From: Smithella sp.
GTDB lineage: Bacteria; Desulfobacterota; Syntrophia; Syntrophales; Smithellaceae
DNA length: 64,000 bases
NCBI GenBank assembly: GCA_012510495.1
Contig: JAAZHX010000308.1
Span: 1-64,000 of the forward strand
Direction: 5' to 3'
Shown piece after piece: positions 927-45,262 of the stretch (position 1 is its first letter; each line of letters starts with the position of its first letter). The notes under the pieces are model-generated. The model had not been told where the DNA came from. It saw only the letters and a program-made list of their open reading frames with translations, and searched no databases. The position numbers and the translations under genes were made by a program.

Positions 927-1055
927 GAACAGGAAAGAAATAAAATCATATGAGCGGCACGGTTTATGAGATCAAAGAATCGCCCATTGCCGATCCCGGG
1001 CCGTTGGGCCCTTTTAAGAAATAATCAACGAGCATGGAGGAGGTTAAACATACCG

Positions 1056-2951
1056 ATGACGAACTATCAGGAAGTTTTTACGCATTCGATTACCGGGCCG
1101 GAATCCTTCTGGGGGAAAGCGGCCCAGGCCATTCAATGGACGAAGAAGTGGGACAGGGTTCTTGATGAAAGCGACAAGCCCTTTTACCGTTGGTTTGCAG
1201 GCGGAGAGCTGAACACCTGTTACAACGCATTGGACTGCCACGTGGCAAACGGCCGGAAAGACCAGGTGGCCATCATCTACGACAGCCCCGTCACCGATAC
1301 CGTCCGGAAGATTACCTACGGCGAGCTTCTGGAGAGTGTTTCCGTCTTTGCCGGCGCGTTGACCGGGATCGGTGTCGTGAGGGGAGACACCGTCATCATC
1401 TACATGCCCATGATTCCCGAAGCATTGACAGCGGTGCTGGCCTGCGCCCGCATCGGCGCCGTCCATTCCGTCGTCTTTGGCGGTTTTGCCCCCAACGAAC
1501 TCGCCATCCGTATCGACGACGCCAGACCCAAAGTCATCATCTCCGCCTCCTGCGGCATCGAAGGCAAGAAAATTCTGTCCTACAAGCCCCTGATGGACGA
1601 AGCCATCCACCTTGCCGCCCACAAGCCCGAAAAGTGCGTTATCTTTCAGCGGCCTCAGGTCAAAGCAGACCTCATCCCGGGGCGGGACCTCGACTGGGAC
1701 AACTTCACCGAAGGCGCCAAACCCGTCCCGTGCGTTTCCGTGGCCGCCACCGATCCCCTCTACATCCTCTACACCTCCGGCACCACCGGAAAGCCCAAGG
1801 GCGTCCTGCGTGACAACGGCGGCCATGCGGTCGCCCTCAAATGGTCCATGGAGCACATCTACGACGTCAAGCCCGGCGAAGTCTTCTGGGCCGCCTCCGA
1901 CGTCGGCTGGGTCGTGGGCCATTCCTACATTATTTACGCCCCCTTGCTCCATGGCTGCACCACCATCGTTTATGAAGGAAAGCCCGTCGGCACCCCCGAC
2001 CCCGGCGCCTTCTGGCGCGTCATCTCCCAGCATAACGTCTCCGTTTTGTTTACCGCTCCCACCGCCTTCCGGGCCATCAAGAAAGAAGACCCTGCAGGAG
2101 AATACCTGAAGAAACACAACATCTCCTGTCTGAGATATCTTTTTCTGGCCGGAGAACGGCTTGATCCCGACACCTACTATTGGGCAAATGACATGCTCAA
2201 AATCCCCGTTGTTGATCACTGGTGGCAGACCGAAACCGGCTGGCCCATTGCCGCCAACTGCATGGGCATCGAGCCTCTGCCCATCAAGGCAGGCTCCCCC
2301 ACCAAACCAGTCCCCGGCTATAACGTCCAGATTTTGGACGCGGACGGCAACCGGCTGCCCGACGGCGAAGAAGGATCCGTCGTGATCAAGCTTCCCCTGC
2401 CGCCCGGCTGTTTGCCCACCCTCTGGCAGGATGACAAGCGCTACCTGGAATACGTCACCGAACGCCCCGGCTATTACGTCACCGGTGACGGAGGGCGTTT
2501 TGACGAAGACGGTTACCTTTACATCATGGGGCGGATCGACGACGTTATCAATGTTGCCGGCCACAGGCTTTCCACCGGCGCCATGGAAGAAATCGTGTCC
2601 AAACACAAGGACGTGGCCGAGTGCGCCGTGCTGGGTGCGGAAGATCAGTTAAAGGGTCAGGTTCCGGTGGGATTTGTCGTGTTGAAAGCCGGCGTGGATA
2701 GAAAACCTGAAGATATCATTGCCGAACTGGTCCAGATGGTCCGCAGCGAACTGGGCGCTTTGGCCTGTTTCAAGGAAGCCGCCGTGGTAAAAGCCCTGCC
2801 GAAGACCCGATCCGGCAAGACACTGCGCGGGACCATGCGGAATATCGTGGACGGCAAGAGTTATGTCGTTCCTTCCACGATTGACGATCCGGCGGTGCTC
2901 ACATCGATTGAAGAATCGGCCAGGAATATCGGGTATGGGAAGAAAGGCTGA
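1056..2951 (+). CDS. prpE: Propionate/acetate--CoA ligase (AMP-forming), PrpE-like
   Basis: A 631-residue ligase that adenylates a short carboxylic acid and transfers it to CoA. The P-loop-like YTSGTTGKPKG lies at residues 239-249, followed by the RDNGGHAVAL segment and EGKPVGTPDPGAFWRV, which are more typical of propionyl-CoA synthetase than of Acs. The acetylatable catalytic lysine is in TRSGKTLRG (K588). ATG 1056 is preferred to the longer frame from 966 because GGAGGAGG at 1036-1043 precedes it and homology starts there. In syntrophs the AMP-forming reaction may run in reverse to make ATP from acyl-CoA and pyrophosphate; that is family knowledge, not shown here. Acetate versus propionate specificity is unresolved. 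Confidence 0.88.
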   Translation: MTNYQEVFTHSITGPESFWGKAAQAIQWTKKWDRVLDESDKPFYRWFAGGELNTCYNALDCHVANGRKDQVAIIYDSPVTDTVRKITYGELLESVSVFAGALTGIGVVRGDTVIIYMPMIPEALTAVLACARIGAVHSVVFGGFAPNELAIRIDDARPKVIISASCGIEGKKILSYKPLMDEAIHLAAHKPEKCVIFQRPQVKADLIPGRDLDWDNFTEGAKPVPCVSVAATDPLYILYTSGTTGKPKGVLRDNGGHAVALKWSMEHIYDVKPGEVFWAASDVGWVVGHSYIIYAPLLHGCTTIVYEGKPVGTPDPGAFWRVISQHNVSVLFTAPTAFRAIKKEDPAGEYLKKHNISCLRYLFLAGERLDPDTYYWANDMLKIPVVDHWWQTETGWPIAANCMGIEPLPIKAGSPTKPVPGYNVQILDADGNRLPDGEEGSVVIKLPLPPGCLPTLWQDDKRYLEYVTERPGYYVTGDGGRFDEDGYLYIMGRIDDVINVAGHRLSTGAMEEIVSKHKDVAECAVLGAEDQLKGQVPVGFVVLKAGVDRKPEDIIAELVQMVRSELGALACFKEAAVVKALPKTRSGKTLRGTMRNIVDGKSYVVPSTIDDPAVLTSIEESARNIGYGKKG

Positions 2952-5229: not shown

Positions 5230-7557
5230 CTACATGTAGTTCCGGTGCTGAATGGATTCGATATAGCCGATGGCGCCGGTGGTAATCCGGGCGGCGTTGG
5301 CCTCATCCGTGTCCAGATGCATGTCCAGCCGGTAATTTGGACTGACGCGGACCAGGACGTCGCCGAAAATCAGTTCCCGAACGCCCTTGACGATTACCCT
5401 CACCACATCCCTGTCGCGCAAGCCCAGGTTCAGCGCTTCTTCCGGGGAAATGTGGATATGGCGCTTCGCGCAGATCACTCCTTTTTCCAGATCAGCGGTT
5501 CCCGCGTCTCCTTCCAGCGTGATGCCCGGCGTTCCTTCCGTGTCGCCGGAATCCCGAACAGGGACTTCAATGCCCAGCTGGAACTGGTCCGTTCGGGAAA
5601 TTTCCACCTGGGACTCCTTGCGCGCCGGTCCCAGAATCCGCACACGGTCGATCCTTCCCTTTGGTCCGATCAGGTTGACGGTTTCTGCGGCGGCAAACTG
5701 GCCGGACTGGCTCAGATCGGAACGGGGCGTCATGGTTCGCCCCGCGCCGAAGAGCATTTCAAAGTGCTTCGCCGTCAGGTGGACATGGCGGGCCGATACG
5801 GATATCGTAATCGGCCTGGATCGTAACTTCTTCAGGTCTTCTTTGGACCGCGTTCGTCCGAGGGCATGGATCGTTTCCCGGGCGATCATTTTTTCCTCAT
5901 CCGCCGGAATCACGAGGATCCGGATTTTGGCGCCGGGTTCGGAGATATCGGTGATCTGACCGCGCCGGGAGCGCATTTTGGCGTTGACTTCGTCATAGAC
6001 AAGGATGCCCAACGCTTCCATGCCCCGGCAGATGCGGGCGCGGATTTCCGCGGCGTTTTCCCCAATGCCGCCGGTAAAAATCAGGGCGTCCAAACCACCC
6101 ATGGCCGCACAATAGGCCCCGATATATTTCCGGACGCGGTAGCAGAAAGCGTTAATCGCCCTTTCACACCGGAAATCTCCCGCTTCCGCCGCCTGGAGAA
6201 GCGTCCTCATGTCGTTGCTCGTTCCGGAAATCCCCAGAAGGCCGCTTTTTTTGTTGAGCATCCGGTCCAAATCCTCGGCGTTCATGTTCCGGTGGCGCAT
6301 CAGATGCAGGATGACGCCGGAGTCGAGGTCGCCCGGACGCGTGCCCATAATCAGTCCTTCCAGCGGGGTCATGCCCATACTCGTGTCCACACTGCGGCCG
6401 TGGTCAATCGCGCACACCGAAGCGCCGCTTCCCAGATGGCAGGAGATCATTTTCAGCTCGCTCACCGGACGCTTCAGATGGGTTGCCGTGCTGAGCGCGA
6501 CGAACTTGTGGCTGGTGCCGTGAAAACCATAGCGGCGGATCTGTTCTTCTTCGCTTACCGCGAAAGGCAGCGCGTACGTGCTGGCCTGCTCCGGCATGTT
6601 GACGTGGAACGACGTGTCGAAAACGGCCACCTGGGGCGCGCCGAAAACCAGCTCTTGCATTCTCTCGATTCCCTTCAGATTGAAAGGATTGTGCAGCGGC
6701 GCCAAGGGAATCAGCTTCCGGATGGAGGAGAGAACTTCCGCGTCCACCTTGACGGAGCTGGAAAACTGCGCTCCGCCGTGGACGACGCGATGCCCCACCG
6801 CTTTGATATCGCTCAAATCGCTCATGCCCGTATAGGCCTGATCGGTGATCGTCGAAACCATCACATCAAACGCCTGTTCGACGGCCAAAACGTCGCGGAC
6901 GGGAATTTCTTTTTTGCCGTCCGGCATCCGCAGGACGTGGGTTGCGTCGCCGGAGCCGATTTTTTCGATGAGGCCCTCGATAACCGGTTCGGATTGCGTC
7001 GTGTCAAACAGGGTATATTTCAAAGACGAACTTCCGCAGTTCACGGTCAGAATTTTCAGGGGGTCGGTGACGGAGGAGAAGTTCAGGTCGTAAGGGTCTT
7101 CATTTTCCCGGTGAACATTTTTCAGGAGTTTTCTGGCGTCATCCTGCTGGTTGCGCAAAAGCCTCCTGGTCACCAGCCGGGTGAACTTGACCAGAGTTCG
7201 GGGATTCCGCGCAAGGATTCCGGATACGATTTCACGAGGAATGCGGATGATGATCGACGCCTGTGCGGCGACGACATCCAGCACCGCCGGCTCTCCGGTC
7301 AGCAGGGCCATTTCCCCGAAGATCTGCCCTCGTTCGAGGGTGGCTACCGTCTTCAGGCTTCCATCGTCTTCCGTGCGCAGCACCTCCACTTCGCCTTCAT
7401 AGACCGCCCACAGGAAGCGGCCGAGTTCGCCCCGACGGATGATGACGCCGCCGGTCGGAAAATCAATCGGATGGGCGTTTTCGGCAATGAGCGCGATGTC
7501 TTCATCCGGCAGATCGGAAAGGATTTCAATTTTTTTTAAAAACAGGGGCAATTCCAT
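5230..7557 (-). CDS. Fused cNMP-binding-like domain / acetate kinase / PduL phosphotransacylase
   Basis: One 775-residue chain with three domains. Residues about 1-140 are a cyclic-nucleotide-binding beta-barrel (GEMALLTGEP at 81-90). Residues about 168-565 are a full acetate kinase: NCGSSSLK (173-180), GHRVVHGG (255-262), YGFHGTSHK (343-351), HLGSGAS (374-380), GGIGENA (496-502). Residues about 580-770 are a PduL-type phosphotransacylase with the zinc-binding pairs HVH (591-593) and HIH (700-702). Together they would turn acetyl-CoA plus phosphate and ADP into acetate, CoA and ATP on one polypeptide. The conserved Arg of the nucleotide phosphate-binding cassette is Ala91, so the ligand may not be cAMP. 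No frameshift separates the domains; the gene is flanked by its own promoter region and a convergent terminator. Normal acetate kinase is about 400 aa. Confidence 0.92.
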   Translation of the reverse strand: MELPLFLKKIEILSDLPDEDIALIAENAHPIDFPTGGVIIRRGELGRFLWAVYEGEVEVLRTEDDGSLKTVATLERGQIFGEMALLTGEPAVLDVVAAQASIIIRIPREIVSGILARNPRTLVKFTRLVTRRLLRNQQDDARKLLKNVHRENEDPYDLNFSSVTDPLKILTVNCGSSSLKYTLFDTTQSEPVIEGLIEKIGSGDATHVLRMPDGKKEIPVRDVLAVEQAFDVMVSTITDQAYTGMSDLSDIKAVGHRVVHGGAQFSSSVKVDAEVLSSIRKLIPLAPLHNPFNLKGIERMQELVFGAPQVAVFDTSFHVNMPEQASTYALPFAVSEEEQIRRYGFHGTSHKFVALSTATHLKRPVSELKMISCHLGSGASVCAIDHGRSVDTSMGMTPLEGLIMGTRPGDLDSGVILHLMRHRNMNAEDLDRMLNKKSGLLGISGTSNDMRTLLQAAEAGDFRCERAINAFCYRVRKYIGAYCAAMGGLDALIFTGGIGENAAEIRARICRGMEALGILVYDEVNAKMRSRRGQITDISEPGAKIRILVIPADEEKMIARETIHALGRTRSKEDLKKLRSRPITISVSARHVHLTAKHFEMLFGAGRTMTPRSDLSQSGQFAAAETVNLIGPKGRIDRVRILGPARKESQVEISRTDQFQLGIEVPVRDSGDTEGTPGITLEGDAGTADLEKGVICAKRHIHISPEEALNLGLRDRDVVRVIVKGVRELIFGDVLVRVSPNYRLDMHLDTDEANAARITTGAIGYIESIQHRNYM

Positions 7558-8407: not shown

Positions 8408-9775
8408 ATGGATGACGATCGTAAAGATAAGCAATCACCCCGGCCAATCCGTCTGAAGCGTTATGTGTTGGCGCTGATTTTGTTCTGGACGGCAGGAGTG
8501 GCTGTTTCGCTGGGATGGAATATTTATCAACTGCAACGGTCGATTTTCGATATTGCCGGCGCCAGCGCGGATATCACTTACGAAAAGGACGTTCTTTACC
8601 GGCGGTGGGTTGCTTCGAAGGGTGGGGTTTACGCGCCGGTTTCGGAGATGACGCCCGTCAATCCCCATCTCCGGGTTGCCGATCGCGACGTCACGGCGTC
8701 CGGCGGGCTTTCGCTCACGCTGATCAATCCGGCCTACATGACGCGCCAGGTCAATGAACTGGCGCGCCCCGGTGTGAACAACTTTCAGGGCCACATCACC
8801 AGCCTCAATCCGATTCGTCCGGCCAATGCGCCGGATGGCTGGGAGGCGCAGGCGTTGGAATCATTTGAACGCGGCGAAAAAGAGCAGAGAACGGTCACGC
8901 GGCTGTCGGGGGAGGAATATTTTCGCTTGATGCGGCCGTTTGTCACGGAAGAGAGCTGTCTGAAATGTCATGCCGCCCAGGGATACCGCCAAGGCGATAT
9001 TCGGGGTGGGATCAGCGTTTCCATTCTCATGGCGCCGTTGCGGCGGGTGGAGCATGTCCGCATGCTGCAGCTTTCACTGGCCCACGTCTTTCTGTGGGGG
9101 ATCGGCCTGGGCGTGATCGGACTGGTTACGAAGCGTTTGCGGACACAAACGAAAAAACGCGAGGAGGCCGAAGAGACGGTTCGTCTCCTTGCCATCACCG
9201 ATGAACTCACCGGACTGCACAACCGGCGGGGATTTTTATCTCTCGCCGAGCATCAGCTGAAAGTGGCGGTCAGAAGCCGGCGGGGGCTGCTGCTTTATTT
9301 TGCCGATTTGGATGGATTGAAATGGATCAATGACACGCTGGGGCATGAAGAAGGAGATCAGGCGCTCATGGAAGCCGCCGCCGTGCTGAAGGAGACGTTC
9401 CGCGCCTCCGACATCCTCGCCCGCCTGGGGGGGGATGAATATGCCGTCCTTGCGCTGGAAACGTCCCGGGAACATTCCACGATCTTTACGGCGCGGCTGC
9501 AATCCCTGGTGGATGCGAAAAACCGCGAAGCCGGAAGGAAATACCGGCTTTCCATCAGCGTAGGCGAGTCCTACTACGACTCTGAAACCCCTTGTTTACT
9601 GGACGAACTCATTTCGGCCGCGGACAAACGGATGTACGAAAGCAAACAGGACAAAAAGAGACGTCTTGCGCAGGGGGTCTCCCTCGCCGACAACGCGTCC
9701 GTGTCTTCCGGGGGGAGGAGCGATAGGGCGGGCGAACGCATCCGGCGCGGGAAGAAGACAGAGAGAGATTTTTGA
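8408..9775 (+). CDS. Haem-binding (DUF3365-type) diguanylate cyclase
   Basis: A 455-residue membrane signalling enzyme. Helix 1 spans residues about 18-40. A periplasmic Tll0287-like/DUF3365 domain follows, with the c-type haem motif CLKCH at 184-188. A second helix is at about 218-242. The cytoplasmic GGDEF domain has GGDEY at 341-345. The inhibitory I-site RxxD (R332-D335) is placed five residues before GGDEY, so product inhibition is expected. The domain order suggests redox or gas sensing by haem that controls c-di-GMP synthesis. An HD-GYP protein for c-di-GMP breakdown lies at 21678-22814. ATG 8408 follows a GGGGAAAAC site. The haem role is inferred from CxxCH and the domain's known members. 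Confidence 0.85.
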   Translation: MDDDRKDKQSPRPIRLKRYVLALILFWTAGVAVSLGWNIYQLQRSIFDIAGASADITYEKDVLYRRWVASKGGVYAPVSEMTPVNPHLRVADRDVTASGGLSLTLINPAYMTRQVNELARPGVNNFQGHITSLNPIRPANAPDGWEAQALESFERGEKEQRTVTRLSGEEYFRLMRPFVTEESCLKCHAAQGYRQGDIRGGISVSILMAPLRRVEHVRMLQLSLAHVFLWGIGLGVIGLVTKRLRTQTKKREEAEETVRLLAITDELTGLHNRRGFLSLAEHQLKVAVRSRRGLLLYFADLDGLKWINDTLGHEEGDQALMEAAAVLKETFRASDILARLGGDEYAVLALETSREHSTIFTARLQSLVDAKNREAGRKYRLSISVGESYYDSETPCLLDELISAADKRMYESKQDKKRRLAQGVSLADNASVSSGGRSDRAGERIRRGKKTERDF

Positions 9776-42973: not shown

Positions 42974-42997
42974 TTGCGCCCGAAGAGGGGGTGCGGC

Positions 42998-45262
42998 ATG
43001 AATCAGAAAATGAAGAACCCGTTGCAGATTACGCCGCTGAAAATTACGCTTTTTGTCATTTTGATCGCGCTGGCGCTGTTTTTGATGGACTTCAAGTTTC
43101 TGCGCCTGGTGGAGCTCAAAACACTGGATCTGCGCATCGCGTCACGCGGCGATCTGAAGCCCGGCAACGAGACCGTCATTGCCGTCATCGATGAAAAAAG
43201 CCTTTCCGAACTGGGCCGGTGGCCCTGGCCCCGGACAACGATCGCGCAACTGGTGCGAAAGTTGAAGCAAAACGGCGCCAAAGCGATCGGCTTCGATATT
43301 GTGTTTTCCGAACCGGACATCAACACCAATCTGCAAACCATTGACGCGCTTTGGGCCGAAATGGAAAAAAGCGGCGTTTCCCATTCCGGCGTCCTCGATC
43401 TGTTACGCAGGAAAAGAGCCGGAGCGGATACCGATGCCATTCTCGCTTCCGCTATGAAAGATGCCGGCAATGTTACCTTGGGGTATTTTTTTCATTTTAC
43501 GCGCGGGGGTGCCGATAAAGAACTGGCGCATTTCACGGAACAACGCATCGCACAAAACGCCCGGCGCATAGAAAATTCCCGCTATTCAATGGTCAGTTCC
43601 GCCTCGGGCCAGCCTAGCGATGCCCGTATCCCCCGCGCCTTCGCTCCGGAAGCCAACATCTCCTCTTTGTCCGCGGCAGGCCGCAACAGCGGCTATTTCA
43701 ACGCCCTTCCGGACAGTGACGGGTCGAACCGCTGGTCGCCCCTAGTGATTGCCTTTGAAGACAATTACTATTCGTCCCTGGCCGTTTCCCTGGTTTTGGC
43801 CTATCTCGATTTTCCCAATCTGTCGCTGAATATCGAGCCTTTCGGCGTAAAAAGCGTGGCCCTTGACGATATCGTGGTTCCGACGGATGAATCGGGGCAG
43901 CTGCTGATCAATTACATGGGACCGCCACAGACGTTTCCCCATTATTCCATTACCGACATTCTGGCCGACCGGCTTCCGAAGGATGCCTTCCGCGACAAGA
44001 TCGTCCTGGTCGGCGCAACCGCCATCGGCATTTACGATCTGCGTGTGACGCCTTTTTCCTCCACGTTTCCCGGCGTTGAAATTCACGCCAACGCCATCGA
44101 CAATATTCTGCACCAAAACTTTCTCATTCACTCTTCCGTGACCCGTTTCATCGACATCTGCTCGATTGTTCTTTTCGGACTGATTCTGGGGCTTCTGATT
44201 CCCCGGTTGCGGCCGATCACCGGCATGGTCACCGCTTTTTTGATGATCGCCGCCTTTGCCGGGATCAATTTCTTCATCTTTTTCACCTTCAATACCTGGC
44301 TGAACCTCGTCTATCCGCTGATCACGATGGCGACGATTTATCTGGGCATCACGGTTTACCACTATGTCAAGGAAGAGCGGGAAAAGAAGAAAATCCGCGG
44401 GGCGTTCCAGTACTATCTGACCTCGTCGGTCATCAATGAAATGCTCAAGAACCCGAACAAGCTCAAGCTGGGCGGCGACAAGAAAGACCTGACCGTTTTG
44501 TTCTCGGACATTCGGGGATTCACCACGATTTCTGAAAAAATGACGCCGGAGGAGCTGGTCGCCCTGCTTAATGAATACCTGACGACGATGACGAACCAGG
44601 TGTTCCATTACGACGGGCTTTTGGACAAGTACATGGGCGACGCCATCATGGCGGTCTTCGGCGCGCCGCTGGACCAGCCGGACCATGCCCTGCGGGCCTG
44701 CCGAACCGCGCTGGCCATGATGAAAGAGCTGCGCAAACTGCAGGAAAAATGGAAGGCGGAAGGGCGCCCCGTGTTCGACATCGGCGTCGGGCTGAATTCC
44801 GGCGACATGGTCGTCGGCAACATGGGATCGGAAATGCGCTTTGACTACACAGTCATGGGCGACATGGTCAACCTGGGTGCTAGGCTGGAGGGAATCAACA
44901 AAGAATACGGCACCAATGTCATCATCAGCGAGTTCACCTACGAAAAGGTGAAGGACGCCATGTGCTGCCGCGAACTCGACGGAGTCCGCGTCAAGGGCAA
45001 GATGAAACCTGTCAAAATCTACGAATTGCTGGGAGAAAAGAAAGACGAGGCGGCGTTTAAAGACCTGCTGGAAGGCTTTGCCAGGGGCCTGACGCTCTAC
45101 CGGGAAGCAAAATGGGATGAGGCGATTGCCGAGTTCCAGGGCGTTTTAGCCTCGCGGCCCGACGACTATTCGTCAAAGATGTATGTGGAGCGGTGCAAAA
45201 ATCTGAAAGAGAACCCGCCTGCCGAACCGTGGGACGGCGTGTTTGTCATGACGAAGAAATGA
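42998..45262 (+). CDS. CHASE2-domain adenylate/guanylate cyclase
   Basis: A 754-residue membrane cyclase. An N-terminal helix (about 18-36) leads into an extracellular CHASE2 sensor (about 40-350). Three membrane helices follow (about 375-460). The class III cyclase domain (about 490-670) has LFSDIRGFTTIS with the metal aspartate, DKYMGDAIMAVFGAP with the second aspartate, and NSGDMVVGNMGS. A short TPR-like tail follows (about 685-745). ATG 42998 is preferred over 42974 since GAGGGGG precedes it. It makes a cyclic nucleotide in response to an unknown external signal. The stop overlaps the alanine racemase start by four bases. Confidence 0.9.
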   Translation: MNQKMKNPLQITPLKITLFVILIALALFLMDFKFLRLVELKTLDLRIASRGDLKPGNETVIAVIDEKSLSELGRWPWPRTTIAQLVRKLKQNGAKAIGFDIVFSEPDINTNLQTIDALWAEMEKSGVSHSGVLDLLRRKRAGADTDAILASAMKDAGNVTLGYFFHFTRGGADKELAHFTEQRIAQNARRIENSRYSMVSSASGQPSDARIPRAFAPEANISSLSAAGRNSGYFNALPDSDGSNRWSPLVIAFEDNYYSSLAVSLVLAYLDFPNLSLNIEPFGVKSVALDDIVVPTDESGQLLINYMGPPQTFPHYSITDILADRLPKDAFRDKIVLVGATAIGIYDLRVTPFSSTFPGVEIHANAIDNILHQNFLIHSSVTRFIDICSIVLFGLILGLLIPRLRPITGMVTAFLMIAAFAGINFFIFFTFNTWLNLVYPLITMATIYLGITVYHYVKEEREKKKIRGAFQYYLTSSVINEMLKNPNKLKLGGDKKDLTVLFSDIRGFTTISEKMTPEELVALLNEYLTTMTNQVFHYDGLLDKYMGDAIMAVFGAPLDQPDHALRACRTALAMMKELRKLQEKWKAEGRPVFDIGVGLNSGDMVVGNMGSEMRFDYTVMGDMVNLGARLEGINKEYGTNVIISEFTYEKVKDAMCCRELDGVRVKGKMKPVKIYELLGEKKDEAAFKDLLEGFARGLTLYREAKWDEAIAEFQGVLASRPDDYSSKMYVERCKNLKENPPAEPWDGVFVMTKK

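Follow-up and report, generated by a model that had tools for sequence, protein, structure and literature searches.

Three domains in one reading frame

The stretch analyzed here, positions 1 to 64,000 of contig JAAZHX010000308.1 from a Smithella sp. genome (GCA_012510495.1) and hereafter called the window, carries on its minus strand a single open reading frame (ORF) in which an N-terminal cyclic-nucleotide-binding (CNB) fold is followed by a complete acetate kinase (AckA) and then by a complete PduL phosphotransacylase (Table 1). The host bacterium is a relative of known methane-community syntrophs. In the preliminary description of the window, made from the letters alone, the three domains had been placed in one frame and both enzymes judged intact by motif; Pfam matches to PF00027, PF00871, and PF06130 bear out the arrangement, and the catalytic residues described below agree with the judgment on the enzymes.

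Table 1. Coordinates of the fusion, its parts, and other genes of the window discussed in the text
Feature	Residues	Position	Strand	Evidence or remark
Whole ORF, CNB-AckA-PduL fusion	775 aa	5230..7557	-	ATG start at 7557, preceded by GGGAGG; architecture common to 15 relatives
N-terminal CNB domain and connecting helix	1-148	7114..7557	-	PF00027, E 5e-18; fold match Z about 20
PF00027 cNMP_binding match	32-118	7204-7464	-	E 5e-18
Non-canonical phosphate-binding cassette FGEMALLTGEPAVLDVVA	80-97	7267..7320	-	Ala91 at the Arg site of cAMP/cGMP binders
Conserved linker DPYDLNFSS between CNB and AckA	154-162	7072..7098	-	40-row alignment
Acetate kinase domain	168-560	5878..7056	-	PF00871, E 1e-143; active-site residues
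PduL phosphotransacylase domain	585-758	5284..5805	-	PF06130, E 1.6e-74; zinc ligands
Acetyl-CoA synthetase-like AMP-forming ligase, possible competing route		966..2951	+	ACAS_N, AMP-binding, and AMP-binding_C matches
Tll0287-like sensor with GGDEF diguanylate cyclase domain, near the fusion		8408-9775	+
CHASE2 with class III adenylate/guanylate cyclase		42974-45262	+	A single further class III cyclase was found in the genome

The genome is a draft of 332 contigs, and the possibility that separate genes had been joined by an error of assembly or frame, raised in the preliminary description itself, had to be considered. However, the full-length order recurs in 15 related genomes at 60–93% identity, which excludes chance or mis-assembly, and is also present in other phyla, with many of the frames located on long contigs; the probability left to such an artefact is negligible. 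An AlphaFold2 model of the chain, built from a 27-row alignment, has a mean pLDDT of 86. In addition, Asp154 and Tyr156 of the linker between CNB and AckA are kept in all rows of a 40-row CNB alignment, which consists of three-domain proteins, with two loci represented twice and one row being a CNB-AckA frame whose PduL lies in another frame.

Both enzyme domains retain their catalytic residues

The AckA domain matches PF00871 over the full model length and scores 474 bits against TIGR00016 (residues 168–564; curated NCBIfam cut-off, 293 bits), while its part of the structural model matches acetate kinases in the PDB with a Z-score (Z) of about 52. With the active-site numbering of the M. thermophila enzyme, residues N7, S10, S12, K14, R91, H123, D148, F179, H180, G239, R241, G331, and E384 are all kept; the sole departure, N211 to Ser, is seen in other fusion members as well. 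Membership in the family is thus indicated by both profile and residues, and the domain is predicted to be an active acetate kinase.

Many PduL proteins, although not all, are associated with bacterial microcompartments (BMCs), and this association is not required of non-BMC PduL. As no BMC shell gene was matched in the genome, the fused PduL would act outside a microcompartment, and a role within one was ruled out. The domain covers nearly the full length of PF06130 (PTAC) and reaches 252 bits against NF011652, above the curated NCBIfam cut-off of 209 bits. Its part of the model superposes on PduL of R. palustris (5cuo) with Z 28.4 and a root-mean-square deviation (rmsd) of 1.2 over 188 aligned residues. 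Moreover, the equivalents of the zinc ligands H48, H50, E109, H157, H159, and H204, as well as R103, S127, and R194, are all kept (numbering from PMC4784909).

The CNB domain lacks the arginine that grips the cyclic phosphate

The N-terminal domain of the model aligns with CNB domains in the PDB at Z about 20 and rmsd 1.8 over 140 residues. The mycobacterial acetyltransferase Pat, which is gated by cyclic AMP (cAMP), likewise carries a CNB domain N-terminal to its enzyme, and the window protein shows a weak match to the Pat model in its CNB region. The canonical phosphate-binding cassette reads FGE[LIV]AL..[PV]R; its arginine coordinates the cyclic phosphate, co-evolves with a glycine of the beta2-beta3 loop, and is retained in most bacterial CNB domains, with the consensus GEMALLDGEPRSATVVA (Kannan and colleagues, PMC2246266). 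In contrast, this arginine is absent in every fusion member read. The corresponding position, that of Arg209 in the RI-alpha subunit of protein kinase A (PKA), is Ala91 in the window protein, and none of the 40 aligned rows has arginine at this column (A 18, I 10, T 6, L 2, S 2, N 1, E 1). An arginine or lysine at position 47, in the beta2-beta3 loop, is kept in 38 of the 40 rows, and Asp94 in 36. In the betaproteobacterial rows, an arginine lies one position earlier in most, and the cassette glutamate is lost in all.

These residues bear on the gating of the enzyme by an energy or second-messenger signal, as the preliminary description had proposed. Were the fusion gated by cAMP or cyclic GMP (cGMP) in the manner of classical CNB proteins, the nucleotide could be supplied by the two class III cyclase frames of the genome, one of which, with a CHASE2 sensor, lies in the window itself; the window protein has also retained the fold, the cassette glycine and glutamate, and the beta2-beta3-loop glycine. 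However, because the phosphate-coordinating arginine is missing from all 40 aligned CNB domains across phyla, such ordinary gating is unlikely, and the case for a classical second messenger is weakened. The loss is specific to the fusion family, since in relative G008 an ABC-transporter ATPase that adjoins the fusion (L138:5750-6886) has a C-terminal CNB domain with the canonical EPRAATV. Hence, the CNB fold is present, and canonical cyclic-nucleotide binding is predicted to fail at its key residue. Another ligand or a structural role for the domain seems more likely; CNB families without the cassette arginine are known to bind other ligands, such as heme in CooA and a chlorinated phenolic acid in CprK (PMC2246266).

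Distribution and evolutionary history

A search for the domain order beyond the window, suggested at the outset as a check, recovered it widely. Besides the 15 relatives, a scan of the collection found the three-domain fusion in Syntrophaceae metagenome-assembled genomes (MAGs), Candidatus Magnetominusculus (Nitrospirota), an Azonexaceae MAG, and another betaproteobacterium. When rows spanning nearly the whole model are counted, full three-domain frames occur in 7 of 198 Nitrospirota genomes and, within one betaproteobacterial family, in 59 of 299. Two copies per genome are present in five of the Nitrospirota (G442, G580, G596, G600, and G620), with one copy type altered at AckA S10, N211, and E385. 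AckA-PduL fusions without the CNB domain were found in Bacteroidota (Neolewinella and Chitinophagales), Myxococcota (Myxococcales), and Rhodobacterales, as well as in three genomes of the window's own order. The preliminary description had named presence of the architecture in well-studied species with known function as a refutation of its reading. This applies only in part: widespread the architecture is, but no member of known function was found.

In an IQ-TREE phylogeny of 80 AckA domains, all AckA-PduL fusions fall on one side of one branch (support 98/91), and all CNB-bearing fusions form a single clade within them (97/93), a result with which a quicker AckA tree agrees. Because of this placement, each joining probably happened once, and the simplest reading is one joining of AckA to PduL, then one gain of the CNB domain, followed by spread between phyla; the order of joining is less sure among two-domain fusions with long branches. 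A Nitrospirota AckA with neither CNB nor PduL (L040:5788-7257) retains the linker as DPYGLDFS, falls inside the clade of CNB fusions, and has a neighbor of tRNA-nucleotidyltransferase type in common with L033. It is a remnant of domain loss, which thus occurs besides joining. In the same genome, AckA-PduL is also encoded by a separate 722-aa frame.

Within the clade, the betaproteobacterial fusions stand apart. In the members read (L034, L035, and L167-L175), the AckA site is degraded (S10I/V, S12Q, K14H, N211I, G239P, G331D, and E384D) while PduL is intact, and a separate AckA is present in the two such genomes checked. This branch is likely a pseudokinase branch, and offers a natural comparison for non-catalytic roles of the AckA domain. 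It also gives substance to the idea that fused AckA is drifting toward a non-catalytic scaffold or sensor, the chain serving mainly to let PduL control the acyl-phosphate pool. However, the window protein and its order keep these AckA residues except for N211S, and a second AckA was not found in the window's genome, which makes this explanation very improbable.

Candidate routes from acetyl-CoA to ATP in the genome

How energy-limited syntrophs obtain ATP from acetyl-CoA has been an open question. The model species Syntrophus aciditrophicus is without AckA and Pta homologues and uses Acs1, an acetyl-CoA synthetase run in reverse (PMC4992975). In the Smithella genome, the fusion is the only AckA match and the only PduL match, and the Pta model gives no match, not even the weak ones produced elsewhere by related phosphotransbutyrylases; therefore, any acetyl-phosphate route must use the fusion chain. 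Similarly, 59 genomes, comprising this one and relatives as distant as the level of the order, gave 20 full PduL matches, every one of them within an AckA-fusion frame.

The preliminary description saw in the fusion an alternative ATP route to AMP-forming ligases. This contrast is undercut by the acetyl-CoA synthetase-like gene in the window, and by ADP-forming-ligase-like frames with PF13607 (ADP-forming acyl-CoA ligase domain) at nine other places in the 2.8 Mb genome, one of them of 991 aa. As far as gene content can tell, there are several candidate ATP routes, of which the fusion is one. Given these other candidates, the chain might mainly activate acids, converting acetate or propionate with ATP to acyl-CoA, or work on propionyl groups, rather than serve as an ATP source. 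The PduL and AckA reactions can both run backward, the PduL family bears the name phosphate propanoyltransferase, and there are propionate kinases within the AckA family; we regard this direction or substrate as possible but rather unlikely to be the principal one.

Proposed mechanism and its relation to known systems

On balance, the fusion is fairly likely to be a bifunctional phosphotransacylase/acyl kinase with a CNB-fold module at its N-terminus for regulation or assembly. By family, PduL would convert acetyl-CoA (or propionyl-CoA) and phosphate to acyl-phosphate and CoA, and AckA would transfer the phosphate to ADP, yielding ATP and the acid, with the sum being reversible. Tethering would raise the local acyl-phosphate at AckA and fix the ratio of the two enzymes. 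The CNB domain may tune activity or oligomeric state, presumably by means other than ordinary cAMP/cGMP binding because the arginine that holds the phosphate is missing across the fusion family; it would more likely sense another small molecule or serve docking and assembly, acting via the long helix of residues 119-148 together with the conserved DPY linker. A bolder proposal, which we put forward only tentatively, is that a CNB domain re-tooled for a ligand other than cAMP or cGMP controls substrate-level phosphorylation, making the chain a signal-gated enzyme, and that the betaproteobacterial chain has become a PduL under the control of an inactive kinase. Examples of such a ligand would be acyl-CoAs, acyl-phosphates, adenine nucleotides, and redox cofactors.

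Several observations weigh against the bifunctional, non-classically regulated enzyme proposed here. With the AckA site degraded in betaproteobacteria, the fusion would not always be a two-step enzyme across the wider family. The acetyl-CoA synthetase-like enzyme and the nine ADP-forming-ligase-like frames could carry the main ATP flux. Furthermore, replacement of the PKA arginine by lysine costs about ten-fold, so weak cyclic-nucleotide binding is possible without the arginine (PMC2246266).

Fusion of AckA with PduL is not new in itself. It was noted in 2016 by Erbilgin, Sutter and Kerfeld, who suggested that PduL takes the place of Pta in such proteins and that being fused promotes channelling (PMC4784909). 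Channelling of acetyl-phosphate, which the preliminary description also put forward, may occur in the window protein. As in those two-domain fusions, AckA is joined to PduL in the window protein and there is no encapsulation peptide; the differences are the N-terminal CNB domain and DPY linker, with the CNB-bearing proteins forming their own clade. The fusion is thus, on its sequence, a genuine variant of the known one. What is new is that the CNB-bearing form is spread over several phyla yet makes up a single clade, that the cassette arginine is missing in the whole family, and that a betaproteobacterial branch has a degraded AckA site and intact PduL; no paper on a CNB-AckA or CNB-AckA-PduL protein was found in the open-licence literature searched. 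Compared with the pathway of separate Pta or PduL and AckA, for which pduL and ackA of Desulforamulus putei are an example as adjacent separate genes, the same two reactions are expected from the same residues, whereas the fusion offers one chain, a fixed ratio, and an extra domain. The Acs1 route of S. aciditrophicus, in a related group, likewise leads from acetyl-CoA to acetate with ATP, but differs as a single AMP- and pyrophosphate-dependent enzyme (PMC4992975).

The relatives considered here carry a complete predicted PduL-AckA route in one chain with a sensor-like domain. If that domain does control the step, substrate-level phosphorylation in methanogenic communities could be acted on directly through it, and nature would have supplied a template for converting acetyl-CoA and acetate in a tethered, tunable way.

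Gene neighborhood and irregular loci

No gene neighbors of the fusion are shared beyond the nearest kin, which suggests that the fusion is a self-contained unit, and an operon clue to function was dropped for this reason; broader all-against-all clustering yielded mostly overlapping-frame noise. Two loci depart from the single-frame arrangement. At L038:7053-10838, from a MAG labelled Syntrophus aciditrophicus, a hydrolase-like protein follows PduL without a break in the reading frame; AckA is frame-split at this locus, and the apparent fusion to a further enzyme was treated as a probable sequence fault. At L116 (1303-3396 and 2892-3752), PduL is out of frame with CNB-AckA, either by a frame error or by a true split; the two other members of this genome's group are single-frame. 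A GGDEF gene, as found close to the fusion in the window, also adjoins the fusions in L150 and L153, with low similarity.
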